The notes under the pieces: model-generated | Told to the model about the DNA's origin: nothing | What the model saw: the letters and a program-made list of their open reading frames with translations, nothing else | Database searches by the model: none | Translations under genes and position numbers: made by a program | IMG/VR virus record: IMGVR_UViG_3300033153_016044 | Location: 1-64,000 of that record | Direction: 5' to 3' (one strand) | From: a virus | DNA: 64,000 bases | In this document: piece by piece, positions 6,334-32,004 of the stretch | Position numbering within the stretch: position 1 is the first letter of the stretch | Layout of the letters: the number at the start of each line of letters is the position of its first letter

Positions 6334-6373
6334 TTCTCTCTGCTCCTCAGCCATGCTCTACTACTATAAGAGT

Positions 6374-8087: not shown

Positions 8088-8101
8088 GTGTCCATACTCT
8101 C

Positions 8102-9111: not shown

Positions 9112-10349
9112 TTTAACTCCGGCTCATGTGTTATTACCTTTAGTTCAGGAAAGAATGTAAGGAACTTGTATCCTTTATCTTGTAGCTTTGACATAATCAT
9201 ATCTGCAAAGTTCCATGCAAAAATAATAATGTAATCTACATCTTTGTCTTCTAGTGCAGAAGGAGACACAATAGGAATTTGTTTACCTGCAATGAATCTT
9301 CCTGCTCTTTCTGGAGATTCATCTACTATAAAATCAACTTGCTCCTTAGTAATGTCACATATATTACATAGCATGTTAGCTCGACCGGAGGCTCCGTATC
9401 CAACAATGGTGGCGCCCTCTTGTTTTAGTTCTTTTATTGTATTCTTAACTGTCTCTATATGATTTGTAACTTCATCACTAAAATCTTTAAACCATTCAGA
9501 GCTAGTCATTCCAGTATCGAATTCTTTCATTAGAAGTCTAGTTACTTTTTTTGGTATGCTTTCTACTTTACCATTCTTTACGTAGACTCTAATACTTCCA
9601 CAGTGAATTGGGATAAAATCATAATCAATTATGGTCATTCCAAAACTTGAAAACAATTTCCACAAAGCATTTAGAGAATAGTAATAAATATGCTCGTGAT
9701 AGATATTATCATATTGAATTTTCTCTATTAGGTCTTTAAGATAGGACACCTCAAAAACAAAGTAGCCACTTTTCTTGAGGGAATACTTGATTCCCTCAAC
9801 AACAGAACGGATATCTTCTATATGTGCAAAACAGTTATTAGAAACAATTAAGTCTGTTGAACTTTCGTCTATATACCTCTCTGCCTTTTCTAGATTAAAA
9901 TAATCATTTATAACATCTAACTCTTTGTCTATGGCAATCTTAGATATATTGACTGCTGGTTCAAATCCAGTCGCATCTATACCTAGTTTCATTAATGGCT
10001 CAAGCAACACTCCATCATTAGAGCCAATCTCAATAACTCTAGAATTAGAATCTAAATTAAATCTATTCTTAAGAAGCTTAGCTACTTTCTTAAAATGTCC
10101 ACTTAGTCCTATAGAACTCATATAGCGATAGTCTTTGAATAGCTTATCCGAATTAATTATGCTATCCGTTTGGACCAAATAGCACTCAGAACAAAATAGA
10201 ACATCTAAATTAAATAGCTCTTCTTCTTCTAGTTGGTCTTCACCTGGAAAGTATCCTGCCAGGGGGACGCTTCCGTACTTTAGTATAGAGAGCATTTCTG
10301 TATTGTCACATATAGCACAGGATTTTCTCTTTTTGTATACGTCGCTCAT
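9108..10349 (-). CDS. Nucleotide-sugar C-methyltransferase (NovU/TylC3-like)
   Basis: A three-part protein of 413 residues, the usual length of this family. Residues about 10-70 form a zinc domain with SCAICDN and FCSECYLVQ. The middle has the SAM-binding motif VIEIGSNDGVLLEPL and SNNCFAHIEDI. The C-terminal domain has VGYGASGRANMLCN and FIVDESPERAGRF, typical of sugar C-methyltransferases acting on 4-keto-6-deoxy nucleotide sugars. Its presence implies a branched-chain deoxysugar. It therefore links to the epimerase, cupin and reductase genes at 4089-6333, although no 4,6-dehydratase or nucleotidyltransferase is in the window. Confidence 0.88.
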   Translation of the reverse strand: MSDVYKKRKSCAICDNTEMLSILKYGSVPLAGYFPGEDQLEEEELFNLDVLFCSECYLVQTDSIINSDKLFKDYRYMSSIGLSGHFKKVAKLLKNRFNLDSNSRVIEIGSNDGVLLEPLMKLGIDATGFEPAVNISKIAIDKELDVINDYFNLEKAERYIDESSTDLIVSNNCFAHIEDIRSVVEGIKYSLKKSGYFVFEVSYLKDLIEKIQYDNIYHEHIYYYSLNALWKLFSSFGMTIIDYDFIPIHCGSIRVYVKNGKVESIPKKVTRLLMKEFDTGMTSSEWFKDFSDEVTNHIETVKNTIKELKQEGATIVGYGASGRANMLCNICDITKEQVDFIVDESPERAGRFIAGKQIPIVSPSALEDKDVDYIIIFAWNFADMIMSKLQDKGYKFLTFFPELKVITHEPELK

Positions 10350-11146
10350 CCGTGAAAAACCTCCATTTTATGCATAATGCTTGTGCCAGTTGTTGTAGGC
10401 CATGAGCATTCTATATTATATTTCTTACAATATCTTTCTGTATACCTGGGGTGCCAATCTATTTCAGTCTTCGCTCTGTATGCAGGCTTTTTCCAATTTA
10501 AATTATTGGACCACTTCTCCTGTATCCAATCTGCATTATTGCAACCAGCCCAGTTATTACTTTGGCTATACTCATGCTTTGTATGCTTAACGAAGTGACC
10601 AACTTCAGTCTTTCCTTCTTTGTGAGTAAAGTCATGTGACCTATCAACTCTATCTTTTAGTCCTGCCTCATACATTCTAAGCTGATAATCATTGTCCTCG
10701 TATCCTCCTCCATGGAACCTCTCATCAAACCAACCAACCTTACAGATTAAGCTTTTATGGAATACTACTGCACCGTAGGAGAATAGACAAATCATATCAT
10801 ATTTATTAGTGGCAATTTGTTCTTCCACATATTCAAGCCAGCCGGGTCTGAATTCTATATCATCATTACATAGCATAACCCAGTCTGTTGGACTATGTAT
10901 AATGGCTTTATTGTATAATCCACAGAGCCCGTGCTTATCAAATAGAGTTATTTCTTGTAAGCTATGCTTATATTCGTAAACAGGTCTACTTAGCTTTGGT
11001 GGTTCTGGTGCATCGTAGAGAATAGTTAGATGTGGTCTATTAACTCCTGCGATTCCATCATTTGTATTTTTATCTAAGGTCTCTACAAATTTAGAAATAA
11101 CTTCTGACCTATGTCGCGTAGGAACTGCTACACTAATATCCTTATG
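10346..11146 (-). CDS. Family 2-like glycosyltransferase
   Basis: A 266-residue GT-A protein from ATG 11146. An upstream ATG at 11176 adds ten residues, but the inner ATG gives the normal strand DISVAVPTRHRSEV and overlaps the preceding gene's TAA. Motifs are LCGLYNKAI (acceptor region), MLCNDDIEF (metal site) and GWFDERFHGGGYEDNDYQLRM, a GT2 hallmark with catalytic acidic residues. The C-terminus is rich in Trp, Tyr and Lys. No membrane segment. Sugar specificity unknown. Confidence 0.82.
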   Translation of the reverse strand, partial: HKDISVAVPTRHRSEVISKFVETLDKNTNDGIAGVNRPHLTILYDAPEPPKLSRPVYEYKHSLQEITLFDKHGLCGLYNKAIIHSPTDWVMLCNDDIEFRPGWLEYVEEQIATNKYDMICLFSYGAVVFHKSLICKVGWFDERFHGGGYEDNDYQLRMYEAGLKDRVDRSHDFTHKEGKTEVGHFVKHTKHEYSQSNNWAGCNNADWIQEKWSNNLNWKKPAYRAKTEIDWHPRYTERYCKKYNIECSWPTTTGTSIMHKMEVFHG

Positions 11147-11933
11147 CATCAGGAGCCTTAACAAGCTGTGGAGCATACTGAGACTGCATTGCTTGCTGCG
11201 CCATACTATCGTAGCGTCCTGTTTTTATGTATTCAAGAGCTAGCTCTTTGCATTTGTGTGCAGCCGCCGCCTCTTCTTCTTTTCTGTTTCCACTAATCTG
11301 GTTGGGGTGCACTCTGAATCCAGCAAGGATATTCTTAATTAGGGCGAAACGAGTAAATTCTGCTGCTCTGACACACCAATTAAAGTCCTCACAAATCTCG
11401 TGACAATAGTCTCCGACCTTATCCCATAATTCTTTTGTATACATAAATGACATACCTATATCGTAGCCATTAACTAGGTCCTGTGCTGGCTGTGGTTGAG
11501 TATGCTTAACTTCCTTAATGGCTCTATCGTTGTGGTCGATAAAAACAAAATCAGAATAAACAAAGTGAACATCCTGAGCCACTGTGGCCTGCAAGCATTG
11601 AGATAATGTTGCTAGGAAGCCTGGGAAATACAGGTTATCAGCACTGCACCATGTCATAAACTTACCCTTGGCTGCGTGGTGTCCCACGTTTAGTGCGCTC
11701 CCTGTTCCTCCATTCTCTTTCTCAAGATACCTAATACGTCGGTCAAAGAAGAACTTCTCAATAATAGACTTTGTGTTATCTATAGAGCCATCATTAACTA
11801 TTATGATTTCAAAATCACCCATGGGCTGCTTGATTAAACAGTCAAGAGTCTTAGCTATATACTTCTCTGCATTATACGCTGGAACTATTATTGAAACAAG
11901 CGGATTGTCGTTATCAATTTTGATTTCTATCAT
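11142..11933 (-). CDS. Family 2 glycosyltransferase
   Basis: A textbook GT2 domain of 263 residues. It has VSIIVPAYNAEKYIAKTLDCL, IIIVNDGSIDNT, ENGGTGSALNVG, and WCSADNLYFPGFL, where the usual DxD becomes SADN. HEICEDFNWCVRA supplies the acceptor-side acidic residue. The C-terminus is Ala/Gln-rich and low in complexity. It overlaps the zincin lipoprotein gene upstream by 4 nt. Soluble. Acceptor and donor unknown. Confidence 0.87.
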   Translation of the reverse strand: MIEIKIDNDNPLVSIIVPAYNAEKYIAKTLDCLIKQPMGDFEIIIVNDGSIDNTKSIIEKFFFDRRIRYLEKENGGTGSALNVGHHAAKGKFMTWCSADNLYFPGFLATLSQCLQATVAQDVHFVYSDFVFIDHNDRAIKEVKHTQPQPAQDLVNGYDIGMSFMYTKELWDKVGDYCHEICEDFNWCVRAAEFTRFALIKNILAGFRVHPNQISGNRKEEEAAAAHKCKELALEYIKTGRYDSMAQQAMQSQYAPQLVKAPDA

Positions 11934-12529
11934 TTCCAGTTCCTTATTACCTTTCTATAAACATACTTCATGTATTGAGGTCCACCATACTTGAGGGTAT
12001 GGTTCAAAGTATAGGCCATTTGCTCTGAGTATTCACCAACGCCGAATAAATCTGTAAGAATTCTGTCTGCAAATTTATTTACATATGCAGCGCGGCTTGG
12101 ATATTCTTTTTTAAACCTAGCCCACGCAGGCTTGAATTCTTCTACACTTACTAGGTCTATATCTCCATCTCTTGTCATATCATCTATGTGATGGAAGTAT
12201 TCATGTGCAAGAAGATAAACTCCGTTGTTCTTTAATCCTTTCATGTTAATGACAACCTTGCGACCCAAGCCTAATCGTGTTACAACAGCAAGCAGACTGG
12301 TCCAAACATTAACGCCAGCAACATAGCTGCCACCAAACGTAATGCCATCTATACTTGGTATGCCCTTAACTGCATCATATGCTTCATCAGTAAAGTAATA
12401 CTGCAGAGCGCTGTCTACAGTCTCGTGGTGAGGGGCTCGTCTTTGACTAATTGGAATGATGTGATTTATCTTTGTAATATGGGTAGCACAACCAGTAAAA
12501 AACATTAGAAAAACTAATAAATATCTCAC
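11930..12529 (-). CDS. Lipoprotein with zincin-type HExxH motif
   Basis: A 199-residue protein with a 12-residue hydrophobic leader ending FFTGC, an acceptable lipobox, so it is probably lipidated and exported. LLAHEYFHHIDD carries the HExxH zinc motif, and a downstream Glu in GEYSEQMAYTL could be the third ligand of a gluzincin. Family not recognised. It may be a metallopeptidase or an inactive relative that binds peptidoglycan or protein. It overlaps the VWA gene by 4 nt. These two plus the serine protease are the only clearly exported products in the island. Confidence 0.65.
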   Translation of the reverse strand: MRYLLVFLMFFTGCATHITKINHIIPISQRRAPHHETVDSALQYYFTDEAYDAVKGIPSIDGITFGGSYVAGVNVWTSLLAVVTRLGLGRKVVINMKGLKNNGVYLLAHEYFHHIDDMTRDGDIDLVSVEEFKPAWARFKKEYPSRAAYVNKFADRILTDLFGVGEYSEQMAYTLNHTLKYGGPQYMKYVYRKVIRNWK

Positions 12530-13230
12530 TTCTTTTTATTCCTTACTAGATAATAGCCTCCGTTGTAGGTATCACCTAGGTTCTTGAGGAATGTTTGGCA
12601 CTCTTGGTCTGGTCTCTTTACTTTGCTTGACCAGTATACCTTATTCTCTAATCCTATTGTGAGTATTGTTGCTGAGAATAATCCTTTTTCATTTCTCCAA
12701 TCTTGAGCATCTCTAATTATATTGTAGGAACTACGGTAGCCACTTCGCGTAACAGATTCAGTGAATCCACCATCAGTAATTAAAATGATAGTCAATGTTC
12801 TGGACATTGCATTATTTTTATTAAGTGGATTGCTGCTCTTAATGGCCATAGACATAGCCTTGTTGCCGTATGACCTTACCTGTTTGCTTTTAGATATCCA
12901 TCCGTAAAGTTTTTTTAATTCCTTCTCGCTCTTCTTGCCACCGGCTGAAATCCACGGATAGAACTTCTCGTTGTTCTTATCTCCAAATAAAATTGCAGAG
13001 AAATACCATTCATCTGAAACAAGTCTATTTGTTATAACTCTCCACGCTCTATAGAACTTAGTCTTAAGCCCCTTGCTGTTCCTCATGGTGCTGGAGCCAT
13101 CTATTACAAACACGATATTATTGGAAACAAACTTAGTAGGCAGAATTTCCACAAACTCTGTGTTGTGATGAGCGAAGACCGGGAGAACTAGCATTATATA
13201 GAAGATAATAGCAAGTAATTTACTTCTCAC
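12526..13230 (-). CDS. Secreted von Willebrand factor A (VWA) domain protein
   Basis: A 234-residue protein with a Sec-type signal peptide (basic start, hydrophobic 5-18, cleavage probably after PVFA). The rest is one VWA domain. The first strand NIVFVIDGSSTMRNSKG holds the metal-ion-dependent adhesion site as DxSxT in place of DxSxS, and TLTIILITDGGFTES holds the later MIDAS Asp. It would bind a protein ligand through a divalent metal in the periplasm or outside the cell. The start is GTG 13230. It is co-translated with the HExxH lipoprotein, suggesting that they act together. Confidence 0.75.
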   Translation of the reverse strand: MRSKLLAIIFYIMLVLPVFAHHNTEFVEILPTKFVSNNIVFVIDGSSTMRNSKGLKTKFYRAWRVITNRLVSDEWYFSAILFGDKNNEKFYPWISAGGKKSEKELKKLYGWISKSKQVRSYGNKAMSMAIKSSNPLNKNNAMSRTLTIILITDGGFTESVTRSGYRSSYNIIRDAQDWRNEKGLFSATILTIGLENKVYWSSKVKRPDQECQTFLKNLGDTYNGGYYLVRNKKK

Positions 13231-13681
13231 TTAGGAGACCCTTGCGCTTTAATATTTGTTCAACAAAAGACTCGAAGGAATATAGTGGGTCATCCATATA
13301 CTTTGCCTGGGCCTGTTGTGAATAGGCTACACCATGGACTCTAAAATTAATGGATGTCTTATCTCCTAGCGGTATAAAGGCTATCTGTCTTTGGTTAAAT
13401 GCTACGAGAGCAAACCCATCTATATCTTCCTTCTCATAGATAGATGACTTGTTTCTATTTTTCTTTAGTGAAAATTCATAGACTAGCTTCTGTGTCTTAG
13501 AAGCCTTGCGAGGCAAGTTAATAGTCTTAACCTGAATCTTAATCAAGTTGTCATTTACATCAGCCACTAGGTCATACTTAACCTTGGGCGGTGTGGTAAG
13601 ACAGACGTGACCGCGAGCTGTAATCTCTGCAGCTACTAGGTATTCTCCCGCCTGTCCCATAAAATGTGCGTCGTGTTGCAT
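13220..13681 (-). CDS. PD-(D/E)XK endonuclease, I-Ssp6803I-like family
   Basis: A 153-residue protein whose first half matches the small PD-(D/E)XK family that includes the homing endonuclease I-Ssp6803I. GQAGEYLVAAEITARGHVC gives the N-terminal helix with Glu, and KYDLVADVNDNLIKIQVKTI gives the catalytic D...(Q)xK core. It could be a free-standing homing endonuclease or a host-type nuclease. No intron is evident beside it. It overlaps the VWA gene by 11 nt and abuts the 66-residue unknown. Confidence 0.7.
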   Translation of the reverse strand: MQHDAHFMGQAGEYLVAAEITARGHVCLTTPPKVKYDLVADVNDNLIKIQVKTINLPRKASKTQKLVYEFSLKKNRNKSSIYEKEDIDGFALVAFNQRQIAFIPLGDKTSINFRVHGVAYSQQAQAKYMDDPLYSFESFVEQILKRKGLLSEK

Positions 13682-13881
13682 TAGTTTTCCTCAAATAGAT
13701 GAACATCGAATAGTGTATTAAAATCATCAAGACACTCCCAAGACAACAGCATTACTGTGCAGCCTCGCTTTCCTTTTACAAAGATAGATGCTCCATGCTC
13801 TGGCAGGTATCCAGTTATGGGAAACTCATCATCCTTTTTGAATATATCCCAATCTTTTGTTAGTGTTGCTATACCATGCAT
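13681..13881 (-). CDS. Uncharacterised 66-residue protein
   Basis: Not recognised. A small, probably soluble alpha/beta protein with a mixed charge pattern, aromatic residues in LTKDWDIFKKDDEF and a central SIFVKGKRGCTVMLLSWE strand-like stretch. Its start overlaps the stop of the methyltransferase gene upstream by 1 nt, and its stop overlaps the nuclease start in the same way. This supports a real, coupled gene. It might assist either neighbour, but nothing in sequence proves that. Confidence 0.5.
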   Translation of the reverse strand: MHGIATLTKDWDIFKKDDEFPITGYLPEHGASIFVKGKRGCTVMLLSWECLDDFNTLFDVHLFEEN

Positions 13882-14486
13882 TATTGTTTCTCAAAAATAA
13901 ATACGGCTCTAACTCTATGGTTAGTTGACCTACTAATTGCTATCTCTCCAACTCTTTTAAATTCTTCCTTACGATACATTGGCAGGACCATATCCATCCA
14001 GCATAGGTAGCCACCCTTGCGTAACACCTTGTAAGCTTCCTTCACTACCTTATTCCGATTCACCATGGGGTTCCCGTAGCGTAGTGCGTCCGACTCTGTA
14101 TATGGTGGGTCTGCTAGAATCAAATCGTAGTAATCGTTTTTGACATGCTCAGACATCTCTTCTGCGTTGCAGCATACGTCTGGACCAAGGTCAGGATTAA
14201 TATCAATCTTCAGCCCCCTATTCATATCACCCAGTGAGCCACTAAATAACTGTAGTGTTCTGCATTTAGCTACGTCTGGAAAAAGAGAATGAATTCTTTT
14301 TAAGTAAGAAGGAGGATAACTTCCGTGATACCCACTACCCTTGTAGTTATTGCCTATATTCCAGATGCCAAGCAACCATCCTTTATCATGCCACATAGAT
14401 GGATAATGAGGGAAGGTTCCATTGTATAATTTTACTCTTTCATCCATGGTATATTTCATGCTTCTAGCCAGATTTTCATACTTCAA
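13881..14486 (-). CDS. DNA methyltransferase-like protein with DPPY motif
   Basis: A 201-residue Rossmann methyltransferase. TLQLFSGSLGDMNRG is motif I-like. YYDLILADPPYTESDALRYG contains the DPPY motif that marks amino-methyltransferases acting on adenine or cytosine N4, or on glutamine or RNA bases. LRKGGYLCWMDMVLPM is the following strand. No separate target-recognition domain is visible, so it is small for a sequence-specific DNA methylase. It lies next to a PD-(D/E)XK nuclease two genes away, which invites a restriction-modification reading, though spacing and size give no proof. Confidence 0.65.
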   Translation of the reverse strand: MKYENLARSMKYTMDERVKLYNGTFPHYPSMWHDKGWLLGIWNIGNNYKGSGYHGSYPPSYLKRIHSLFPDVAKCRTLQLFSGSLGDMNRGLKIDINPDLGPDVCCNAEEMSEHVKNDYYDLILADPPYTESDALRYGNPMVNRNKVVKEAYKVLRKGGYLCWMDMVLPMYRKEEFKRVGEIAISRSTNHRVRAVFIFEKQ

Positions 14487-15528
14487 CCGTATTATAGAAT
14501 GGCTCCATTCTTTTTGTGCCCCAGAAGTCTTCCATCCACACTGCTATGTTAGGTAGCCTTGGCTTAGAGTAAATCTTATCCTCTTTCCAATTTTTGATTG
14601 GTATTCCTCTCTTGACTGCCGAAGAAGCCAGCAAATGATAACCTTCATCATTCGCATCTCTCTGTGGGTGACCATCTATCGCTGCAGGATGTGGTCCATC
14701 ATAGTGGAGGATTTCATTAAGGTCTTCTTTTCGGTTTACAAACTCATCTAGCTTAATATCAAACTCTGCACCAGCATTACCTCCACGTCCTTCAAACTTA
14801 GCTAGCTCACTGCGATAAAACTCTGCCTTCATCTTGTGAAACTCAACACCCTTTGCGTGACCATAGTGATATATATAGAGGCCAGGCATAGTAAACCTTA
14901 GCGTCTGCATTCCTGGGTCAAAGTATGTGCACTTGCCGTTAGGAAGTGTAGCAACTGGATGAGTATGGTATCTCATGCCAGGAACATACTTGATTATCCT
15001 TTGGTGCTGTGGCTGCCATTCGGGATGTGGTGCCCTGACGTGAGAAAAGTCTCTATAGAAATGCAGAAATGTTGGAATGATTTCTGAAGCCGAGGGATGT
15101 TTATGAATAGCCTGACGGACCCTCTCTATATCTCCCTCCATGTAGAACTCATCGGCATCTACTATGAATAGCCATTCGCCTTCTGTGGCTGCCTCAAGAA
15201 AGATTTGCTTCTGCTCTTCCAGTGACTTAAACGGTCGGTTAAGCGTATATAATTGAATCTTATTGTCGGGGTCAGGGAAATTTTTAATAATTTCCACAGT
15301 ATTGTCAGTGCTAGAACCATCAGGCGTAGCTCCTGGACGCCCCTCCACAGCACCCTCAACAATCCTAATGATGTCAAATTCATCATAGTTGTTTTTAAGA
15401 ACGTGCTCAATCCAATCCGCTTCATTGTGACATCCAATACATTTAACAAGCTTAATATTATTCAGCGCATAGTTTACATCTGTAAGAATCCTTGACATTT
15501 GATTAGACATTACAGGCTTCTTTCTCAA
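14476..15528 (-). CDS. Family 2-like glycosyltransferase
   Basis: A 350-residue GT-A protein. Motifs are VKCIGCHNEADWIEHVLKN, SSTDNTVEIIKNF, and EWLFIVDADEFYMEGD with the metal-binding DAD. The C-terminal third contains YHYGHAKGVEFHKMKAEFY, common in GT2 enzymes such as those annotated as lipooligosaccharide or protein glycosyltransferases. The start could be ATG 15528, or ATG 15510 just outside the preceding gene's stop. No strong ribosome site decides. It is soluble and overlaps the GT4 gene upstream. Confidence 0.8.
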   Translation of the reverse strand: MRKKPVMSNQMSRILTDVNYALNNIKLVKCIGCHNEADWIEHVLKNNYDEFDIIRIVEGAVEGRPGATPDGSSTDNTVEIIKNFPDPDNKIQLYTLNRPFKSLEEQKQIFLEAATEGEWLFIVDADEFYMEGDIERVRQAIHKHPSASEIIPTFLHFYRDFSHVRAPHPEWQPQHQRIIKYVPGMRYHTHPVATLPNGKCTYFDPGMQTLRFTMPGLYIYHYGHAKGVEFHKMKAEFYRSELAKFEGRGGNAGAEFDIKLDEFVNRKEDLNEILHYDGPHPAAIDGHPQRDANDEGYHLLASSAVKRGIPIKNWKEDKIYSKPRLPNIAVWMEDFWGTKRMEPFYNTVEV

Positions 15529-16600
15529 TGCATTCTAGGACGCTCTTAGTGGTGTTAGCCCAGGTCAATCCCTTGGCTGTTTCAATACCTGCAATATTTA
15601 ATCCTAACTGACCTGACTGCTTTCTTTCGTGAACAGTTCTCATGTGAGCCACTAGCTGTGCTAAATCAAAAGTAGCCCAGTCTCCTTGGCCGTTAAACCA
15701 TTTACCATCTATAGCAGGTTCCATTCCAGTAACGTCTAACATTAGAGAGTTCTCTTCTGTCAAGAACTGAGTGTGACCTGAATAGTTTGTAGAAATAATA
15801 TGAGCACCGCAAGCCATAAGCTCTGGAATCTCTAGGTTCCAGCCTTCTGCATGACTAGGGAACACACCGCAGTCTACATGGTTAAAGATTTTTCTAATCT
15901 GGTCGTGACTATCTAGTCTAGGGAAGAACTTAATATGCCCAACCATATTAGTGCTGGCATACTTCTGCTTCCATTGAAAGTTCTCGTGACCAATAAACGG
16001 ATTGTCGTTTATCATCCATAGCTCTACGTTATCACCTGGCTGAAAAGCTGCACAGAAAGCTGCAATTAATTCATCATGTCCCTTGCGCTTCTCCCACTTG
16101 CCCATGTTGATAAATATAGTAGTGTCCTTCTGCCAGTATGCTCTCTTGGCTCTCTCTGCTTCATCTACGAAGAAGATTTTAGGGTCTATACCTAGAGGAG
16201 CTACTGTTACTGGAACATCTATTCCATTTTCTTTAATTACATTCTTAGCCCAGTCCGAACATACAATAAGGTTGTCAACATTACTAAGGTTATGCATCTC
16301 TCTGTCATTGAATCTGTTCAGTTCAAAGATAGGCCACCCAATTCTAAGCCCCTTGCCCGGAAACATATCTAGCTCATATTGATGCCAAATTCTAAGAGAT
16401 GGCGCATTACTATTATATCTCTGGGCCCTAGCTATTGCATCATCAAACTTCTTTTGCAATTCATTATTGGCGGGCCAACTTACATTGCCAAGTGGGAAGT
16501 AAGCTACGTCGTGACCATCAGCTACTAGTGACTGAAATACATTACAACCAACAACACCATAGCCTAATGTGTTGATGGGTGAGATTAAATTAATATCCAT
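15503..16600 (-). CDS. GT4-family glycosyltransferase
   Basis: A 365-residue GT-B enzyme. The first domain has ISPINTLGYGVVGCNVFQSL and IVCSDWAKNVIKENG. The donor domain has FINMGKWEKRKGHDELI and the GT4 signature HAEGWNLEIPELMACGAHII, in which the two Glu residues are eight positions apart. Length is normal. It overlaps the next GT4 gene by 11 nt. Three GT4 genes in a row (15503-19384) look like successive steps of one glycan assembly. Confidence 0.87.
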   Translation of the reverse strand: MDINLISPINTLGYGVVGCNVFQSLVADGHDVAYFPLGNVSWPANNELQKKFDDAIARAQRYNSNAPSLRIWHQYELDMFPGKGLRIGWPIFELNRFNDREMHNLSNVDNLIVCSDWAKNVIKENGIDVPVTVAPLGIDPKIFFVDEAERAKRAYWQKDTTIFINMGKWEKRKGHDELIAAFCAAFQPGDNVELWMINDNPFIGHENFQWKQKYASTNMVGHIKFFPRLDSHDQIRKIFNHVDCGVFPSHAEGWNLEIPELMACGAHIISTNYSGHTQFLTEENSLMLDVTGMEPAIDGKWFNGQGDWATFDLAQLVAHMRTVHERKQSGQLGLNIAGIETAKGLTWANTTKSVLECIEKEACNV

Positions 16601-17750
16601 TAGACAACTTCCATTTTTTGTAGTAGTACATTATGCTATCTCTCATGTGTGTTCCAATCTTATCATAGGAAAAGTCCTCGACTCTATCCTTACATGATTT
16701 AATTCTATTAGACCACTTGGAGTTACTGCTATTTAATTGGTGATAGTTCCACTCGTGATATGCGTTCCTCATGGCACTTCTCAAACTAGAGGTGCTGGGC
16801 TCAGCCCAGTTATCATTTCCTGTATACATAAACTTATGTGGGTGAGGCATATCAAAACATGGACTCATGTCGTAATCCACGAGCCAACCACAGTCATCTG
16901 TGATGAACTCTGTTGGTCCACCCCAGTTAACAGCAATAGGAGGAACACCAAATCCCATCGCATCAAAGTGAGGAATGCCCCAGCCTTCTCCTCTACTAGG
17001 TAGCACGTAGCAATCTGAACTAGAATACAATCTATCAATTGACTCTTGTTTCAATACCTCGTGCACTAGGTATAGACTTGGATATGAGTCTATACGCAGT
17101 AACTCTTTAGCCTTATTAATTTGGTTGAGCATTTTCTGCTTGTGGTCAGCACCATCTGAGCTTCCGAAGTATACTTTTAGAATAAGCATCACATTATCTG
17201 ATGCTCTAAACTCACTGAAGTATGCCTTGAGCAATGCGTCCAATCCCTTCTTCTTGCTAATCTGACAGATGGCTAGGAACTTAAACTTACCACTACTATT
17301 GGGAATTTGAAATGGCTGTGCTTCAATATATCTACTCTTGTCAAATGTATGCTGAACCTTAACAATAGGAATGTGAACACCAGCCACTCTTGCGGCCCTG
17401 ACATTTTCATCGCAGGGAACCAGTGCTAGGTCCATAGTATTTATTTTCTCGACCCACTCTGTTGGAACTCTATCTGTCTCCCATGCAAAGTAGTTAACAT
17501 TAAACACGCCATCTTTTCTAACTGTCTCATTTGGAGTGGTGTGCTGGATGACTATGTCCACATTCTGAACATCTCTATTGAGAAGCTCTACCTCTCTAGC
17601 AGAAAACGGATGTTCTCCGCCATCGTAGCTTAATGTTCTTGTAACTAAATTACAGCCCACACTATCTAGTGCTCTTACATAATCTCTAGCAGCAGTAGCG
17701 TAGCCGCTGAAATCTTTTAGTGGTGCTGCATATAAAATCTTAGGACTCAT
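16590..17750 (-). CDS. GT4-family glycosyltransferase
   Basis: A 386-residue GT-B enzyme. DFSGYATAARDYVRAL is the N-terminal glycine loop, and FLAICQISKKKGLDALLKAY opens the donor domain. SRGEGWGIPHFDAMGFGVPP is the EX7E-type signature, with His-Phe-Asp replacing the usual second Glu region. This is a variation to note, since the second acidic position may be Asp. The C-terminus is rich in His, Trp and Tyr. No membrane segment. It shares a 4-nt overlap with the upstream GT4. Confidence 0.85.
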   Translation of the reverse strand: MSPKILYAAPLKDFSGYATAARDYVRALDSVGCNLVTRTLSYDGGEHPFSAREVELLNRDVQNVDIVIQHTTPNETVRKDGVFNVNYFAWETDRVPTEWVEKINTMDLALVPCDENVRAARVAGVHIPIVKVQHTFDKSRYIEAQPFQIPNSSGKFKFLAICQISKKKGLDALLKAYFSEFRASDNVMLILKVYFGSSDGADHKQKMLNQINKAKELLRIDSYPSLYLVHEVLKQESIDRLYSSSDCYVLPSRGEGWGIPHFDAMGFGVPPIAVNWGGPTEFITDDCGWLVDYDMSPCFDMPHPHKFMYTGNDNWAEPSTSSLRSAMRNAYHEWNYHQLNSSNSKWSNRIKSCKDRVEDFSYDKIGTHMRDSIMYYYKKWKLSNGY

Positions 17751-19384
17751 AGGAGTATACCTGCCAGTGAGGTGTTGTTAAATGAAAGACCTTGGCTTGG
17801 GTCGAATCCTCTAACTTCAAGCGACTTTTCCCACCTAATCCTTTCAAAGTTATTGTGTGTGGCTCCTTCATTTCTAAAGAATGACTCAACCGCTGCTCTT
17901 GAGGTCCCATTGGCCAGTGAGGTAACCCAATTGGTGTATCCCTCTTGGTCTGGTTCTCTACCAAGGATGAGCTGATAACAAGCAAGAACAAAGTTTTCAT
18001 TATTTAGATTGCCAGGAACTTGTCTTTTGTTTATAACTCTATACTCTGGTCGCCTATCCCAAGTTTTGTTTCTATCATCAATTTGAATCTCATCGAAGAT
18101 TTCCTCAAATTTCTCTGCAGTAGAACTCCAGTTATGAAGCTTTTCTGATACAGCCCTAGCCAGTTTGCCCAGCTTCTTTCTCTTCTTTGGATTGCAGAGC
18201 AGAAGCTTAAATCCATCTACCATACTTTGGACATCTGGTAGTGACCTTACTGCCATCGTCTCAGCTTCTGTATAGAATGTTCCAATGTCTATGCCCATTC
18301 CTCCACCATTCTCAACGTGGTCTTCCATAGCTGAGTAGTTAGAATATAGGCCAGGAACTCCACAGGATTTTGCTTCAACAATAGGAAGAGCCCAGCCCTC
18401 ACAAATAGCTGGCTGGACATATATATCCATCATGTTAAAAATTTCAGATAGTTCCTCGGTAGAGACACCACTATGTGTGTTGGGCATATGAGCCTTCATC
18501 TCTCCACAGAAGATGCACTTGCCTAGCCCTTTCTTTCCCTCACTAGGAATGAACCAAGAGAAGAAGCACCTGTGGCAGCCGTCACACTTATAGGTGAATA
18601 TGACATGACGATTGATTCCATTTCTTTCAATTAGCTCAGGTATATTCCAACCAACATCCGGCCAACTGGTGTGGCAAAGTAGAACAGACTTCTTAACTTC
18701 TCTTAGATGTCCATACTCTTTACGTAGCTGGGAGTATGCCTGAAACAGTTCGGGGAAACACTTGCGCTTCTGATTTCTCATCACTGTTCCTATAATCTTC
18801 AAGCCTTTTTGAATTCCCCAGTCTGACCTAATCTTATTCTTATCGCCAGGAGAAAAGGCTTCTAGGTCTACACCGGGACTAGTAACAGTCTTGACTACTG
18901 CACCTTGACCTTCTAATACCCTCTTGCCAAACCTACTATATGTAGTGACTACATCTGCCTTCTTGAATATATTATCTATCCAATCTTTTCTTTGTGGGGC
19001 GCTATCAACAGTTGGAGTAAGAACAACCTTAAAGTTATCTCTAAACTGAGACTTCATAATATGTTCTACCATCCATGGGTCTCGGGCATCGAAGACAATA
19101 TCAGGCTGGAAGTCTGCTACTACAGCATCGAACTTATAAACACCAAACTGATTTGTGGGTTTACTCTTGTATATATCTGCCTCCTGTTGGTTCTTAGGTA
19201 GATTACCGTAAAACTTCCAGGGTAGCGCGAGGGCGCTAGGGTCTGATGAATTACCATAGCTACCAAACTCTGCTATGGTATACTTGCCTGTGTTGTGGAT
19301 TCTTCTTATAATCTCTTTGTTGTACGTAGCAAAACCAGTTGAAAGCCAACTGGATTCTCCACAAAATAAAATTCTCTTTTTCAT
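17747..19384 (-). CDS. GT4 glycosyltransferase with inserted zinc ribbon and C-terminal DUF4214
   Basis: A 545-residue fusion, longer than a normal GT4 (about 380). The N-terminal Rossmann domain has FCGESSWLSTGFATYNKEI. A zinc ribbon (YKCDGCHRCFFSW, then KCIFCGEMK) is inserted at about residues 267-300, in the donor domain. The signature CEGWALPIVEAKSCGVP follows. Residues about 465-520 match DUF4214 (FVLACYQLILGREPDQEGY), a domain found in bacterial surface and secreted proteins and in some glycosyltransferases. It is the first enzyme of the island and follows the sigma-like gene by a 4-nt overlap. Confidence 0.87.
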   Translation of the reverse strand: MKKRILFCGESSWLSTGFATYNKEIIRRIHNTGKYTIAEFGSYGNSSDPSALALPWKFYGNLPKNQQEADIYKSKPTNQFGVYKFDAVVADFQPDIVFDARDPWMVEHIMKSQFRDNFKVVLTPTVDSAPQRKDWIDNIFKKADVVTTYSRFGKRVLEGQGAVVKTVTSPGVDLEAFSPGDKNKIRSDWGIQKGLKIIGTVMRNQKRKCFPELFQAYSQLRKEYGHLREVKKSVLLCHTSWPDVGWNIPELIERNGINRHVIFTYKCDGCHRCFFSWFIPSEGKKGLGKCIFCGEMKAHMPNTHSGVSTEELSEIFNMMDIYVQPAICEGWALPIVEAKSCGVPGLYSNYSAMEDHVENGGGMGIDIGTFYTEAETMAVRSLPDVQSMVDGFKLLLCNPKKRKKLGKLARAVSEKLHNWSSTAEKFEEIFDEIQIDDRNKTWDRRPEYRVINKRQVPGNLNNENFVLACYQLILGREPDQEGYTNWVTSLANGTSRAAVESFFRNEGATHNNFERIRWEKSLEVRGFDPSQGLSFNNTSLAGILL

Positions 19385-20744: not shown

Positions 20745-22313
20745 TTATAAATGTTCAATCGAATCTACTAGAAGACCAGTACCCTTATTATTATCGCTCT
20801 TCTTTCCTCTTATCAATACTGCCTTTCCTTCTTTAATAATCCAGCCCAGCTTATTGTATTGTCTAGAGAATACTGTCACACCATCCATCATATAGGTGGC
20901 GTCACTCACCTTCATAAAGCACATTAGATTTTGATTCTTATCTTTAATCTCTCTAATTTCCTCTATGATAACTCCTATACTTACTCTATCTCCATGCTTA
21001 AGACTAAGGAAATTTTGACATGTGGTATCCACATTCCAGTTATTGTATAGCTCAACCTCGCTACCGCTGAGTGGCATACCTAGGTGAAACTTTTCCCAAG
21101 CCAGAGCCATGCGTTTTCTGTTGCCGCCAAGGTCTCTTTTAATACCTGTCCATGAGCCCAGTAACTTTTCAATCCTGCCATTGCCACGAGGCACGCCATC
21201 TCTAATCAGCCCAGCCAACATATCATCAACAGGGACGTCATTAACACCATCGTTTTCAAACAGATAATTTCTTTCTCTATCTGTTAGCGTTAGGAGAAAA
21301 TCATACCTAGCCAGCAGCTTAACTCTATCTATAGGTATTGGGAGAGCACCGCACTTTATTAAAGACTGAACTACATTCTTCTTTACCTTACACTTGTCAA
21401 TAAATAGCTTCTTAAATAGTCCGTAGCTAGTATCAATTCCCTTTAGTTCCTTTATGGTCTTCAGAGATTTCTTACCCACCCCCTTAATATGACCCAGGCC
21501 AAACACCAAATCATTCTTCTCTGTGAATTCAAACTCACTATTACCAACCTCTACACTAGGGGGTAAGACATTAATCTTAAACAACTTAGCTTCATATACC
21601 AGCTGTTTAATTTCATCAAACTCATCCGGATTACTATCCGAGAACGCTAGCTTATTCTTGAAGAACTCTATAGGGAAGTGGACCTTGGCGTATGCTCCCC
21701 AATATCCAAGGAATGCGTAGCTAACAGCATGACTCTTATTAAATCCATAGCCAGCAAACTCTCTAATCCATGAGAAGATGGTTTCTGCTTTCTCTTTACT
21801 ATGTCCATTCTTAATAGACCCTTCAATGAATGCGGCCTCTACTTTCTCCATTAGAACAAGGTTCTTCTTGCCTACTGCCTTACGAGCCGTGTCAGCGTCC
21901 TGAAGAGAGAATCCTGCGAAGTCCGTGCAGATTCTCATAATCTGCTCCTGGTAGATGGGGACGCCCATGGTGTCCCTGAATATAGGCTCCAGCACAGAGT
22001 CAATATACTCTGGCTTCAGCTCCCCAGTCTTCGTCTTTACATAGGTGTCTGTAATGTTTAATATCTTGCCAGTCTCTGGGTCTTCTCTATACTCAGCTTC
22101 AAGACAGCCTGGCCTAATGAGACTGATGACTGCGGCCAGCTCTTCTATATTCTTAGGTTCAATCCTTTTGCAGAATCTTCTACCTAGCTGTTTCTCAATC
22201 TGAAAGAGCCCCTTGGTCAAGCCGTTACCTAGCAGGTCCCAGGCTGCGGGACATTGCAGATTCACTTTCTCAAAGTCTAGCTCCTCAAACTCACAACCAC
22301 AATCAAATTTCAT
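20745..22313 (-). CDS. dnaE: DNA polymerase III alpha, C-terminal part (fingers to OB fold)
   Basis: The second piece of a split replicative polymerase, 522 residues. It starts with a Cys-rich cap (DCGCEFEEL) and then continues the family alignment from AWDLLGNGLTKGLFQIE. Next come AAVISLIRPGC, VPIYQEQIMRICTDFAGFS and ARKAVGKK, then FAGYGFNKSHAVSYAFLGY (fingers and nucleotide pocket). A helix-hairpin-helix (LGHIKGVGKKSLKTI) and an OB fold from about residue 440 follow. It has none of the catalytic palm aspartates, which are in the 24044-25936 gene. Both parts together total 1,152 residues, close to a normal single-chain alpha subunit. Four genes lie between them. Confidence 0.9.
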   Translation of the reverse strand: MKFDCGCEFEELDFEKVNLQCPAAWDLLGNGLTKGLFQIEKQLGRRFCKRIEPKNIEELAAVISLIRPGCLEAEYREDPETGKILNITDTYVKTKTGELKPEYIDSVLEPIFRDTMGVPIYQEQIMRICTDFAGFSLQDADTARKAVGKKNLVLMEKVEAAFIEGSIKNGHSKEKAETIFSWIREFAGYGFNKSHAVSYAFLGYWGAYAKVHFPIEFFKNKLAFSDSNPDEFDEIKQLVYEAKLFKINVLPPSVEVGNSEFEFTEKNDLVFGLGHIKGVGKKSLKTIKELKGIDTSYGLFKKLFIDKCKVKKNVVQSLIKCGALPIPIDRVKLLARYDFLLTLTDRERNYLFENDGVNDVPVDDMLAGLIRDGVPRGNGRIEKLLGSWTGIKRDLGGNRKRMALAWEKFHLGMPLSGSEVELYNNWNVDTTCQNFLSLKHGDRVSIGVIIEEIREIKDKNQNLMCFMKVSDATYMMDGVTVFSRQYNKLGWIIKEGKAVLIRGKKSDNNKGTGLLVDSIEHL

Positions 22314-22885
22314 TAGAGACGCTCCAGTTTCAATTTCTTACCCATCCAGCATTCGAAGCACCTGGGCTCATACATATCTATTCCCCCTACTGCTACCTGG
22401 TCTGTATTATTAGTTTTCCTATATGTTCTAGTAGCGCTGCTTATCTTCTTGCACTTAGAGCAGACTGCCTTCAGACACACAATGTTATCTGCTAGAGATA
22501 GTAGGTCTGGCATAGCCCCGAATGGCATACCAGATGAGTCTTGTGCTAGCCCAGCGACTATGACATGAGTCCAACACATGAAGTCTCTAACTGTAGCTAT
22601 CAATTGGTTTCTATTAAAGAATTGAGCTTCATCGAATAAGAACACGTCAATACTTTGATATTTAGATAGTTGAGCAAAGCATTCGCCAACAACATTCTCT
22701 GTGTCTATTGCTATAGCAGGGAACTTATCTCCGTAGTGAGTAGCTATGCTATCAACACTATACCTATCATCATTCTTTGGTTTAAAAGCAACTACATCAT
22801 CACCGGCTATTGTGTGTGCTACGCCCTTGCTGATTAAAACAGAACTCTTGCCAGAAAACATAGGACCTGTAATGACCGTCAGCAC
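22313..22885 (-). CDS. tdk: Thymidine kinase (type II, TK1-like)
   Basis: Phosphorylates thymidine to dTMP with ATP. The 190-residue protein has the P-loop ITGPMFSGKSS, the Walker B-like VFLFDEAQFF with the catalytic Glu, and the lasso/substrate loop DQVAVGGIDMYEPRCFEC. A zinc site is formed by CSKCKK and RCFECW. Length and order are as in TK1-type enzymes. It is nested between the two polymerase genes with a 1-nt overlap on the polymerase side. With ThyX and dUTPase it builds the dTTP pool. Confidence 0.93.
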   Translation of the reverse strand: MLTVITGPMFSGKSSVLISKGVAHTIAGDDVVAFKPKNDDRYSVDSIATHYGDKFPAIAIDTENVVGECFAQLSKYQSIDVFLFDEAQFFNRNQLIATVRDFMCWTHVIVAGLAQDSSGMPFGAMPDLLSLADNIVCLKAVCSKCKKISSATRTYRKTNNTDQVAVGGIDMYEPRCFECWMGKKLKLERL

Positions 22886-23103
22886 TATTCACCCATCAAT
22901 TCTTTTCCGATTTTATTCTTATACCAATCGCCGAAAGTTTCTCTCTTCATTTGAATATTGTTACTTCCTATAATTCTTCTTTCGCCTTTGCCATGGCACC
23001 TCATAAAGCTGCACTTAATTTTCTCTTTAGGGTCAGACGCGATGGGCATCGCTGCCGTCCATGAACCGCCACATAGGTCACAGATATATTTATAGTTTGG
23101 CAT
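22885..23103 (-). CDS. FmdB-like small zinc-ribbon protein
   Basis: A 72-residue protein that starts MPNYKYICDLCGGSW, the usual opening of FmdB-type zinc ribbons, and has a second pair of cysteines at KCSFMRCHG. The C-terminus is basic and polar. Such proteins are of unknown function, and many phages carry one in their replication or nucleotide region. It overlaps the thymidine kinase gene by 1 nt and the nuclease-like gene by 14 nt. Confidence 0.7.
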   Translation of the reverse strand: MPNYKYICDLCGGSWTAAMPIASDPKEKIKCSFMRCHGKGERRIIGSNNIQMKRETFGDWYKNKIGKELMGE

Positions 23104-23587
23104 TTATATGCTCCACTCTATATGCGACGCCATCTTTTTCAATTACTTCTCTCTTTACTAATAGCATGCAGGTGGCAAATCTATCTCCACCATTGACACT
23201 TCTGAATTTAGAGATGTTGGCATCATCAAACAGATATGCTTTTAGGTCTTCTGTAATAAACATGTATAATGTAAATCCTTTGTCTCCGGGAACTACATAA
23301 AAAACTTCTTCTGCTTCTGTAGAAGATATCCCCGTGAGCTTACCTTTTTTATTATGAGTTTCGAAACATAAATTCCCTGTCTTCTGAGCCATCTTGTCAT
23401 ATTTGATTTCAACTCGATATGAAATACCGCTATTAGATGTGACCTCTATGTCTCCCTCTGACTGTCTTTCTTTTTCCAGGTCAGCTATAGTAACCTTATA
23501 CGGACCCTTGTGTAGCTTATTAAGAAATGTCTTTACTACATCTACTGCTACTTTTGAATCTTCTAAATCTTTTAAAAAGTGTCCCAT
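23090..23587 (-). CDS. Putative PD-(D/E)XK nuclease-like protein
   Basis: A 165-residue protein. SEGDIEVTS, then YRVEIKYDKMAQKTGNLCFE, resembles the nuclease core in which Asp and the E-x-K of VEIK bind metal, and the TGN-(hydrophobic)-E segment often follows in phage nucleases. The rest is alpha/beta with no other recognised motif. It could process replication intermediates. The assignment rests on the motif pattern alone. It lies between the dUTPase and zinc-ribbon genes, overlapping or abutting both. Confidence 0.5.
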   Translation of the reverse strand: MGHFLKDLEDSKVAVDVVKTFLNKLHKGPYKVTIADLEKERQSEGDIEVTSNSGISYRVEIKYDKMAQKTGNLCFETHNKKGKLTGISSTEAEEVFYVVPGDKGFTLYMFITEDLKAYLFDDANISKFRSVNGGDRFATCMLLVKREVIEKDGVAYRVEHINAKL

Positions 23588-24063
23588 TATGAAACTCCTG
23601 TACTTCCATATCCGCCCTCTCCTCTTTTAGAGATAGAGATACTATCAGTCCATGTAAAGTTTGCTTGAGGAGCCCTCTTAATAACAAACTGAGCCACTCT
23701 ATCTCCAGTCCTAACTGGAAATGGTTCTTTAGAACTGTTCTGTAGAATTACACCACACTTGCCTCTATATCCAGAGTCTATAGTTCCCGGTGAATTCAAT
23801 ACTGTGATGCCTTTTTTAAGAGCTAGACCCGACCTTGGTCTCACCTGAATCTCCCAGCCGTCTTCTATCTCCATCTTAAAGCCTAGGTCTAGTAAAGCTC
23901 TAGCTCCTGGTTGGATTACAGTCTCAGTTACACTACTTACATCTGCTCCTGCATCTCCAGGTTTTTTATATTCAGGCAACACAGCTTGCTCATGTGTTCT
24001 TTCTAATTTTACGCTAGGGTTTTTCCTCACGGCAATCTCAAAATCACTTTGCATCTTTTCCAT
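23587..24063 (-). CDS. dut: dUTP diphosphatase (dUTPase)
   Basis: Hydrolyses dUTP to dUMP and PPi, feeding ThyX and keeping uracil out of DNA. The 158-residue trimeric-type protein has all five motifs: DAGADVSS, RPRSGLALKKGI, GTIDSGYRGKCG, GDRVAQFVI and RGEGGYGSTG at the C-terminus. The start ATG 24063 overlaps the polymerase N-part gene by 20 nt, with AGGAG 11 nt upstream. A second in-frame ATG at 24054 is possible. Confidence 0.95.
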   Translation of the reverse strand: MEKMQSDFEIAVRKNPSVKLERTHEQAVLPEYKKPGDAGADVSSVTETVIQPGARALLDLGFKMEIEDGWEIQVRPRSGLALKKGITVLNSPGTIDSGYRGKCGVILQNSSKEPFPVRTGDRVAQFVIKRAPQANFTWTDSISISKRGEGGYGSTGVS

Positions 24064-25936
24064 TTCCGTTATGTCTCCTGTTTACATCTTCTTGAATTTG
24101 ATATAAAACATCCATTGTATTAAGTCCAAGAATATCTACCTTAAGATATCCAAGAGAATCTAATGTCTCTCCGTCCCACTCAGTAATAAGTTTCTTTTCT
24201 TTAGCATTCCATCTTAAAGGAATAGAACCTGTATCAAAAGATTCATCACTAATAACAATACCAGCGGGGTGCTGTCCAGAACTCTTTGGACAACCCTCTA
24301 GTCTGCCGGCGATACTGAATAGCCTGGGATACTTTTCTTGATACTCTTTTAGCTTATCATTCTTCTCTACTGCATCTTCCAGGTTCTTAACCTTTGTTAA
24401 TACATTACGAGTCATGACGTTGGCATCCTGGTGAGACATTCCCTTTCTTCCTAGAATCTTGGCAGTGTCCTTGAGTGCTGCCTTAGTAGCAAGAGTATTG
24501 AATGTTACCATCTGTGCTACTCTATCTTTTCCGAAGCGGTCCTCTATATATTTGACTACCTCACCTCTGCGGGCGCGGCTAACATCTATATCAATATCAG
24601 CCATAGAACCTTTACGTCCTATGTTGTAGAACCTCTCCCAAATAAGCCCATACTTAATTGGGTCAATTCCGGTAATTCTAAGAATATAACTAACAATAGA
24701 ACCCGCAGCAGAACCACGGCCTGGACCAACAGGAATATGCTGAGAACGGGACCAATTAACAATGTCCCAGATAATAAGAAAGTAGTCAGCAAGACGAGCG
24801 TCTTTAATATCTCGTAACTCTTTCTTAATCCTGGCCTTATGCTCCTCACAAGCTTCTTCAATCGGCGTACCATACCTGACTTCGTATCCGGACATAACAA
24901 GTTCAACGAGATAATTAAAGGATGTAAGGTCAATGACTTCTCCATTTTCATCTGTGTGCTCACAGCTCTTTGTAGCACAACCAGTTCCTTGATTAATGTT
25001 AGGAACGAATTCATACCTAGGAAGATGTAGCTTGTGCTTTATCTCTACGTCTCCTATGCGGTCAGCAATCTGAGCACTCATTTCTAGCTCTGCTTCAGTC
25101 ACAGTGCTCATGCGCTCTTCGCCGTCTTCTGTAGTAAGAGATTCTCTCAACATATGTTCGGCATTTTTTAGCCAATACTCTCTAGTAGAATAGTATGGGC
25201 GGAACTCTTTACCCTTGCCGTAGCCAACGGGCTTGTCGAAAGTATCCTTTGTTCTAATGGCCCAGATAGCCTCATGAACTTCAACATCATTTCTGTCAAT
25301 GTAATGAGCATCCTGACAGCCAACAATAGGAATATCTAGATGACCACCTAGCTGACGTAGCATCTTGTTAATCTCTGGCTGACAATTCAGTCCACCGTCT
25401 TGTGTCTCAAGATAGAATCTGTCACCGAAGATGCCCTTTAGTCTAAGAGCGTGCTCTGCAGCAACATCATAATTGCCTTCGTTGATATTCCATGGCACAA
25501 TGCCCTTGAGGCAGGCAGTAAGACATATAAGCCCCTCTCCGTATTGGTCCAGGTCATTGTAATCAACTCTGGCTGAGTAGTAGTATTTCTCATTAGCCTT
25601 TGTATTTAGAATCTTAATATTCTCCCACCCCTTTTGATTCATGGCAAGCATAATGATGTGGTGGTTTCGCGAAGCTCTTCTCTTATCTATCTTTGCTCTT
25701 GCCTTGTCCTTAGTATGGTCGTCTACCATATAAAATTCACAGGCTAGAATTGGTTTGATGCTTCTCTTCTTGCATTCCTTATAGAACTCTGGTACACCAG
25801 AGATGGTACCGTGGTCTGTTAGGGCTAGGGACTTGTGACCATACTCATCAGCTCTCTTGACTATATCTGGAATTTTAGATATAGCATCTAGTATGCTGTA
25901 TGAACTATGTAAGTGAAGGTGTGCCATCTCTGTCAT
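24044..25936 (-). CDS. dnaE: DNA polymerase III alpha, N-terminal part (PHP and palm)
   Basis: The first piece of the split replicative polymerase, 630 residues. The PHP domain (about 1-240) has HLH at 8-10, TDHG at 40-43, ACEFYM, NHHIIML and CQDAHYI. Most metal ligands appear kept, so it may proofread. The palm has GPGRGSAAGSIVSYIL, MADIDID with Asp447 and Asp449, and YLKVDILGLNTM with the third catalytic Asp601. The chain stops 29 residues later at NGNGKDAK, before the fingers. No intein motif is visible at the end. It is an intact gene with its own stop, followed by dut. Confidence 0.92.
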   Translation of the reverse strand: MTEMAHLHLHSSYSILDAISKIPDIVKRADEYGHKSLALTDHGTISGVPEFYKECKKRSIKPILACEFYMVDDHTKDKARAKIDKRRASRNHHIIMLAMNQKGWENIKILNTKANEKYYYSARVDYNDLDQYGEGLICLTACLKGIVPWNINEGNYDVAAEHALRLKGIFGDRFYLETQDGGLNCQPEINKMLRQLGGHLDIPIVGCQDAHYIDRNDVEVHEAIWAIRTKDTFDKPVGYGKGKEFRPYYSTREYWLKNAEHMLRESLTTEDGEERMSTVTEAELEMSAQIADRIGDVEIKHKLHLPRYEFVPNINQGTGCATKSCEHTDENGEVIDLTSFNYLVELVMSGYEVRYGTPIEEACEEHKARIKKELRDIKDARLADYFLIIWDIVNWSRSQHIPVGPGRGSAAGSIVSYILRITGIDPIKYGLIWERFYNIGRKGSMADIDIDVSRARRGEVVKYIEDRFGKDRVAQMVTFNTLATKAALKDTAKILGRKGMSHQDANVMTRNVLTKVKNLEDAVEKNDKLKEYQEKYPRLFSIAGRLEGCPKSSGQHPAGIVISDESFDTGSIPLRWNAKEKKLITEWDGETLDSLGYLKVDILGLNTMDVLYQIQEDVNRRHNGNGKDAK

Positions 25937-31567: not shown

Positions 31568-31601
31568 ACCTCTACTTATAGTATACGCGTACATTATTGT
31601 T
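31568..31601 (-). promoter_or_regulatory. Promoter-like element, helicase/polymerase operon
   Basis: A 34-bp minus-strand element that is identical at 28 of 34 positions to the one at 33799-33832. It contains AACAATAA, then TACGCG, a -10-like TATACT, and GTAGAGG at the likely transcript start. It fills the gap before the 155-residue unknown and dnaB. The -35 region (CTGACT at 16-bp spacing) is poor, so an activator or a dedicated sigma factor may be required. Confidence 0.7.
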
Positions 31602-32004
31602 AGTCAGATAAGAGTTTATTTACAATTGTTTCTTCTTCGTCGTCTGCTCTAATCACCACCAATCTAATGTCGTTATATGTACACCATAAGGATTTCTTTC
31701 TATCTCTTGCTTGGGCTAACTTAAAGTTCTCTTGTGAGCCATGAAAGAAGTTGCTGTATTCATAGTGCTGTCTGCCCTGTGCTTCAACTGCTATTCTTTT
31801 TCTGGGTAAGAAGAAGTCAATATACAATCTGTCACCGGGGATATAGAATTCTTCTAGTATTACTTCATTGGGGAATACCCTATCTACAACTTCTCCTACG
31901 GAGAACTGAAAATTACTCTTGCAGTTATCAGAAGACCTCCGAGGCCATTTAGATGGTCGGAGGTCTATCTTGTAAATACGCCCCTCAGTTGAGAGGAATT
32001 TCAT
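31600..32004 (-). CDS. Putative endonuclease, Vsr/DUF559-like PD-(D/E)XK fold
   Basis: A 134-residue protein. LYIDFFLPRKRIAVEAQGRQHY matches the core of very-short-patch-repair and DUF559-type endonucleases, in which Asp of YIDF and Glu of VEAQG bind metal and the usual xK is replaced by xQ. The segment AQARDRKKSLWCTYNDIRLVVI is the following helix and strand. It directly follows recA (TAATG overlap), so a role as a recombination-linked nuclease, perhaps a resolvase, is plausible but unproved. Confidence 0.65.
   Translation of the reverse strand: MKFLSTEGRIYKIDLRPSKWPRRSSDNCKSNFQFSVGEVVDRVFPNEVILEEFYIPGDRLYIDFFLPRKRIAVEAQGRQHYEYSNFFHGSQENFKLAQARDRKKSLWCTYNDIRLVVIRADDEEETIVNKLLSD

Follow-up and report, generated by a model that had tools for sequence, protein, structure and literature searches.

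Must a C-family replicase be one chain? C-family polymerases are the copying enzymes of bacterial chromosomes and, barring inteins, are regarded as single chains. The question is raised by a stretch of viral DNA of 64,000 nucleotides (64 kb; the window), namely positions 1 to 64,000 of the 97,729-base IMG/VR virus record IMGVR_UViG_3300033153_016044, in which the alpha subunit of DNA polymerase III (Pol III), DnaE, is encoded by two genes, here called DnaE-N and DnaE-C, with four other genes between them. The arrangement had been noted in a reading of the letters alone (the sequence-only reading). Judged from sequence comparison, it is highly probable that the phage has a C-family replicase of its own, made up of two proteins that would re-associate without a peptide bond.

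Two complementary halves and their joint

DnaE-N consists of a PHP domain (PF02811, E 2.5e-43, residues 6-180) and the palm and thumb (DNA_pol3_alpha, PF07733, E 8.6e-77, residues 342-604), and its catalytic triad, Asp447, Asp449, and Asp601, is aligned and invariant, with the last residing 29 residues from the C-terminus. DnaE-C carries the fingers (DNA_pol3_finger, PF17657, E 1.3e-37; residues 11-170 and on), a helix-hairpin-helix (HhH) region (HHH_6, PF14579, E 2.2e-11; residues 246-324), and an OB fold at about residues 448-521, which is weak by sequence (PF01336, 3.3e-4, below the cut-off), although the predicted model contains its strands and, as a whole, matches full-length Pol III alpha. 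The contents of both genes, including the position of the third aspartate, and their joint length of 1,152 residues agree with the sequence-only reading. That reading had also called for alignment to full-length DnaE, in which the two proteins prove complementary: Taq DnaE is covered over residues 6-632 by DnaE-N and from 642 onward by DnaE-C, starting at residue 11 of the latter, with about 9 residues between, and phrog_405 is covered over 41-619 and 623-1075, respectively. By these alignments, the cut lies in the palm-fingers linker, and almost no sequence is missing. DnaE-C does continue DnaE, as had been proposed, but homology to Taq DnaE restarts about 20 residues earlier than the GLTKGLFQIE motif given as the point of resumption. 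With respect to family membership, the Asp triad, the N-terminal PHP domain, and the fingers, HhH, and OB fold are all present; what the pair lacks is the single polypeptide, there being two genes with four between them.

Confident predictions suggest that each half would fold alone, adopting the structure of the Pol III alpha portion to which it corresponds. The model of DnaE-N (predicted local distance difference test, pLDDT, 90.7; predicted template modelling score, pTM, 0.90) has Taq Pol III alpha as its best structural match (E 8.3e-49), and that of DnaE-C (pLDDT 93.0, pTM 0.86) has Mycobacterium tuberculosis DnaE1 (E 1.6e-24). In the mechanism proposed, DnaE-N and DnaE-C would be translated from one chain of overlapping genes and, given this overlap, both would be synthesised at the same place, as expected; the two chains would then re-form the palm-fingers contact that is normal within single-chain enzymes.

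The halves might instead be joined after transcription or translation, whether through a split intein, splicing of the RNA, or bypass by the ribosome. Cyanobacterial DnaE is likewise encoded by two genes, whose products are ligated by means of a split intein located in the fingers. Moreover, members of the window's clade contain inteins or intein-like inserts in their DnaE halves. In the N-half the site is GPGRG (L005 4649-7900, L284); in the C-half it is FNK (L040 7992-10385, L284, L286). Those of L284 and L286 are deduced from a gap in the profile match. All of these lie away from the split joint. At the facing ends of DnaE-N and DnaE-C, no intein blocks were found, as the sequence-only reading had held: DnaE-N ends 29 residues past its third aspartate and DnaE-C begins about 10 residues ahead of the homology, leaving no space for intein halves at either end. 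No Rfam intron was matched in the window either, and the idea that an intron or split intein occupies the joint was rejected for want of any such sequence. In addition, the four conserved genes in between have their own starts and are under constraint, and the corresponding slots of other phages hold different genes. Because the facing ends are devoid of intein sequence and the inteins of relatives sit elsewhere, splicing is unlikely, and joining in any form is considered very improbable.

The 97.7-kb record contains one palm gene and one fingers gene; neither PolA nor PolB was found in it, nor was a DnaQ-type exonuclease, and since the record is perhaps incomplete, these absences are no proof. 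The search for a second, full-length polymerase in the same genome, which the sequence-only reading had named as a finding that would overturn it, thus came up empty within the record. Two larger records from relatives, L004 (177 kb) and L286 (167 kb), likewise have one palm gene, and DnaQ was not found in them.

Recurrence, constraint, and origin of the break

Scans of viral contigs revealed the same break, together with dUTPase, nuclease-like, zinc-ribbon, and thymidine kinase genes in the same order, in L002 (79-83% identity to the window), L003/L006, L004, L005, L040, L279, L281, and L284. In L286, the break is retained, and dUTPase-like and nuclease-like genes were detected in the gap. 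An extra gap gene is present in some relatives, that of L040 being a LAGLIDADG gene. A scan in which divergent split C-halves, aligned, served as the query yielded 79 further loci, all of them split at the same linker; this sample was chosen by similarity to a split sequence and is therefore uninformative on the share of splits among all viral DnaE. The break point thus recurs elsewhere, as the sequence-only reading had suggested looking for, in the window's clade and in these 79 loci. What that reading presented as a split in one phage with a four-gene gap is a real break, but one common to a large viral clade, whose slot usually holds a DnaQ-like gene. A sequencing or assembly error, which might be suspected of a single metagenomic record from an uncultured virus, can hardly be entertained because the identical arrangement recurs in independent contigs from many data sets.

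Altogether, 90 distinct split loci were compared, the window included. The slot contains a gene for a DnaQ-like exonuclease in 79 of these, and L171 adds one more by profile match; in the examples scanned, the gene is identified as RNase_T (PF00929) and by phrog_192, a "DNA polymerase exonuclease subunit". Other slot genes, named by sequence similarity outside the profile-scanned examples, encode uracil-DNA glycosylase (UDG; L036, L125, L126, L171), a macro domain (L036), RNase HII (L048), and zinc-ribbon-like proteins (L041, L048), with HNH-type genes in further loci. Within the window's clade, dUTPase and the zinc ribbon are retained. No named phage of this clade was found in a collection of 50,697 phage records, where the best identity was about 32% for the C-half and 36% for the N-half; the C-half of L042 gave no identity above about 30% in the same collection, and no near DNA match to the polymerase region was found.

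Purifying selection acts strongly on both halves, with ratios of nonsynonymous to synonymous substitution rates between the window and L002 of 0.068 for DnaE-N and 0.048 for DnaE-C. These values bear on the possibility that there is no single enzyme at all, the halves decaying or doing separate jobs and the phage relying on the host's polymerase for replication. Such a reading may draw on the facts that assembly is inferred only and that the PHP site has decayed in many relatives. It is opposed by the palm aspartates, retained in 222 of 222 sequences compared, by the strong constraint on both halves, by their constant co-occurrence in one operon, and by the phage's own helicase, primase, and single-stranded DNA-binding protein (SSB), and we regard it as improbable. 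Selection, co-conservation, the isolated phage described below, and the precedent of the T4-like proteins 43A and 43B suggest that the halves assemble, and the assembled pair is presumably an active polymerase.

Maximum-likelihood trees built from palm plus fingers place the sampled split viral genes within a single clade (100/99 in the careful tree), the exception being those of Rossellomorea phage phiT1 (PV767480). In this isolated phage, gp20 (PHP and palm) and gp18 (fingers onward) are separated by a 49-aa gene; the linker is broken at the same place, phiT1 falls outside the window's clade, and its break is independent. Nested within the split clade are ten fused viral relatives. A topology uniting every split gene of the clade was rejected by the approximately unbiased (AU) test (p 0.015), and one uniting its fused members was not (p 0.079). 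There have therefore been either several breaks or one break followed by at least one re-fusion. A cellular origin of the break was discarded: among the 80 best genome_contigs loci, 79 are fused, and the exception, L266, has masked bases at the joint.

As for how the gene came to be broken, a mobile homing endonuclease may have done so and later been lost or replaced by other genes. This proposal concerns the origin only. It finds some ground in the LAGLIDADG gene that L040 has in its slot, in HNH genes in L050, L155, L170, and others, and in the split genes of T4-like phages, for which an origin by homing endonuclease has been proposed (PMC2988022). A similar case is provided by Bacillus phage vB_BauM_KLEB27-3 (L034 3923-8293), in which an HNH endonuclease gene separates two DnaE pieces at a nearby point; its break is within the conserved FQIE stretch and is therefore possibly an intron or endonuclease insertion. 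Most slots, on the other hand, are occupied by DnaQ or nucleotide-metabolism genes with no endonuclease, and phiT1 has only its 49-aa gene, so that such an origin is conceivable and on balance unlikely.

The cysteine element and the PHP site

The new N-terminus of DnaE-C carries a cysteine element, C-x-C followed after 13 to about 30 residues by a cysteine directly ahead of the conserved WDL helix. It opens 49 of the 90 distinct split C-halves and occurs in none of 175 fused linkers (96 viral, 79 cellular), counts that overstate the evidence because related sequences are not independent. The third cysteine takes the place of the usual Asp in IPLDD, and none of the 47 aligned rows with CxC lacks it. 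A candidate for a fourth ligand, Cys432 ahead of the OB fold, occurs also without CxC and in fused relatives; strict co-occurrence therefore does not bear out a four-Cys zinc site, only three cysteines co-occurring and the fourth being unspecific. In the predicted model, residues 1-20 of DnaE-C have a mean pLDDT of 81-89. It is plausible from these patterns that CxC...C binds a metal and steadies the new N-terminus of DnaE-C, serving as a clasp that would be dispensable in some members. In the clade of the window, the window itself, L002, L040, and L279 have the element, and L003, L004, L005, L281, L284, and L286 lack it; hence it is not essential for assembly in general. The suggestion in the sequence-only reading that this terminus forms an interface or a zinc element is thus strengthened insofar as about half of the split C-halves have the element, and weakened insofar as part of the window's own clade does not.

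Several points weigh against a two-subunit enzyme. The putative clasp is lacking in part of the very clade to which the window belongs. The alignments used for folding contained fused homologues, and a good monomer model is no proof of pairing. The evolutionary distances of the two halves correlate (r 0.915), which speaks for a pair, but common descent alone would be expected to give such a correlation.

The Cys element of the split lineages would favour, of the two histories left by the trees, a single break with re-fusion. Taken together, it is possible, though tentative, that a two-subunit replicase is ancestral in a major uncultured phage lineage, its palm and fingers proteins being kept together by the native interface along with a metal clasp acquired at the break, with a slot that gathers DnaQ, UDG, dUTPase, or RNase HII, and with at least one later re-fusion.

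The PHP site of the window retains nine of nine canonical ligands (HHDHEHCDH). Among the split N-halves without a main-cluster DnaQ in the slot (n=9), eight have all nine and L171 has eight, DnaQ being present by profile in this last case. Among those with DnaQ (n=77), 38 have eight of nine, the seventh ligand being changed from Cys to His, and 34 have four or fewer. It should be noted that there are exceptions among fused relatives with DnaQ elsewhere in the record, as all nine ligands are found in L023, L038, and L039, though not in L044; the link between PHP decay and DnaQ is therefore a tendency. The simplest reading of these sequences is that PHP proofreads in the window's clade, given that no DnaQ gene was found, and that DnaQ does so in most others.

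Known systems, locus layout, and other breaks

Single-chain DnaE proteins (Taq 2HPI, M. tuberculosis 7PU7, phrog_405) share with the pair the domain order from PHP to OB, the Asp triad, and the nine-residue PHP site, whereas the window has two genes, a break in the palm-fingers linker, an N-terminal Cys element, and no C-terminal tau-binding region past the OB fold. A phage replicase in two polypeptides is known from T4-like phage 25: its proteins 43A and 43B purify together and have polymerase activity (PMC2988022), re-associating without splicing as is proposed here. However, that split PolB belongs to an unrelated polymerase family and is associated with either a seg endonuclease or an insert that is not translated, whereas here a large clade has metabolic and fidelity genes in the slot. 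C-family polymerases made of two phage proteins are also found in group 2.2 jumbo phages, in the form of a minimal accessory split Pol III, the genes of which are far apart and beside PolB (Iyer et al. 2021, PMC7824862). In contrast to that enzyme, which lacks the other Pol III domains, the pair described here has full domains in one operon and is the only replicase found, with no PolB. From cyanobacterial split-intein DnaE, on the distribution of which a paper is cited in PMC3919608, it differs in having no intein and a different break point. phiT1 gp20/gp18, with the same linker broken, has no Cys element inside its C-half gene. In literature of partial coverage, with few subscription papers, no description was found of a full-domain, intein-free, two-gene C-family replicase common to a large phage clade. 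The principle of a split replicase is therefore already known from split PolB and minimal split Pol III, and the full-domain C-family lineage appears to be undescribed.

If the palm-fingers break is indeed stable and recurrent, a C-family enzyme can have its catalytic centre on one subunit and its fingers on another, and the halves would offer natural parts for split-replicase studies. Such phages may be misannotated as having a broken polymerase. Moreover, a slot with DnaQ, UDG, dUTPase, or RNase HII, together with the tendency of PHP to decay beside DnaQ, makes the evolution of proofreading testable.

The genes in question form an overlapping chain on the minus strand (Table 1), with successive overlaps from DnaE-N to DnaE-C of 20, 1, 14, 1, and 1 nt; TAATG is common to the thymidine kinase stop and the DnaE-C start. 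All four intervening genes named in the sequence-only reading are recovered, the zinc ribbon by a weak match and the nuclease-like gene by its signature. The latter gave no match in a Pfam search, and its Asp46, Glu60, and Lys62 are unchanged across seven relatives.

Table 1. Features of the split polymerase locus (window coordinates)
Feature	Coordinates	Strand	Details and basis
DnaE-N, PHP and palm/thumb	24044..25936	-	630 aa; Pfam, Taq DnaE alignment
dUTPase, 20 nt overlap with DnaE-N stop	23587..24063	-	PF00692, E 2.9e-25
Small PD-(D/E)XK-like protein, 165 aa	23090..23587	-	Fold inferred from GD...ExK signature
Zinc-ribbon protein, 72 aa, FmdB-like	22885..23103	-	PF09723, E 6.2e-5 (below cut-off); phrog_1076, E 0.002
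Thymidine kinase, GTG start	22313..22885	-	PF00265, E 1.9e-36
DnaE-C, fingers, HhH, and OB fold	20745..22313	-	522 aa; Pfam, Taq DnaE alignment
DnaE-C new N-terminus, Cys5-x-Cys7 and Cys21, possible metal site	22251..22313	-	CxC counts

The flank on the DnaE-N side contains genes for a PD-(D/E)XK nuclease, ThyX, dATP/dGTP diphosphohydrolase, an NT5C-like protein, primase, DnaB helicase, RecA, and a MazG-like protein, and SSB and a sigma-like gene lie beyond DnaE-C. Adjoining RecA is an HNH or homing-endonuclease-like gene (31600-32004; phrog_559, phrog_9084). Farther away, positions 1-19384 are occupied by a long series of genes for glycosyltransferases, methyltransferases, and sugar-nucleotide enzymes, and also for a trypsin-like protein, all sharing the strand of the replication genes. 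Positions 44116-54066 contain a single open frame encoding 3,316 aa, which has a neighbour encoding 1,258 aa.

Other breaks of viral DnaE were encountered as well. In L008, L011, L101, L108, and L110, the gene is broken immediately ahead of the catalytic PDID motif; the tail of the first open reading frame resembles intein blocks (e.g. ETVVFVHEVVEGDEIIRY) and the next frame begins nearby, an arrangement that resembles a split intein placed in the palm. Another recurring break point, seen in L026, L033, L056, L068, L076, and L080, puts the PHP domain and the palm-fingers part in separate open frames. Lastly, Alicyclobacillus phage KKP_3916 (L029 1384-7998) has four DnaE pieces, which are annotated as hypothetical proteins.

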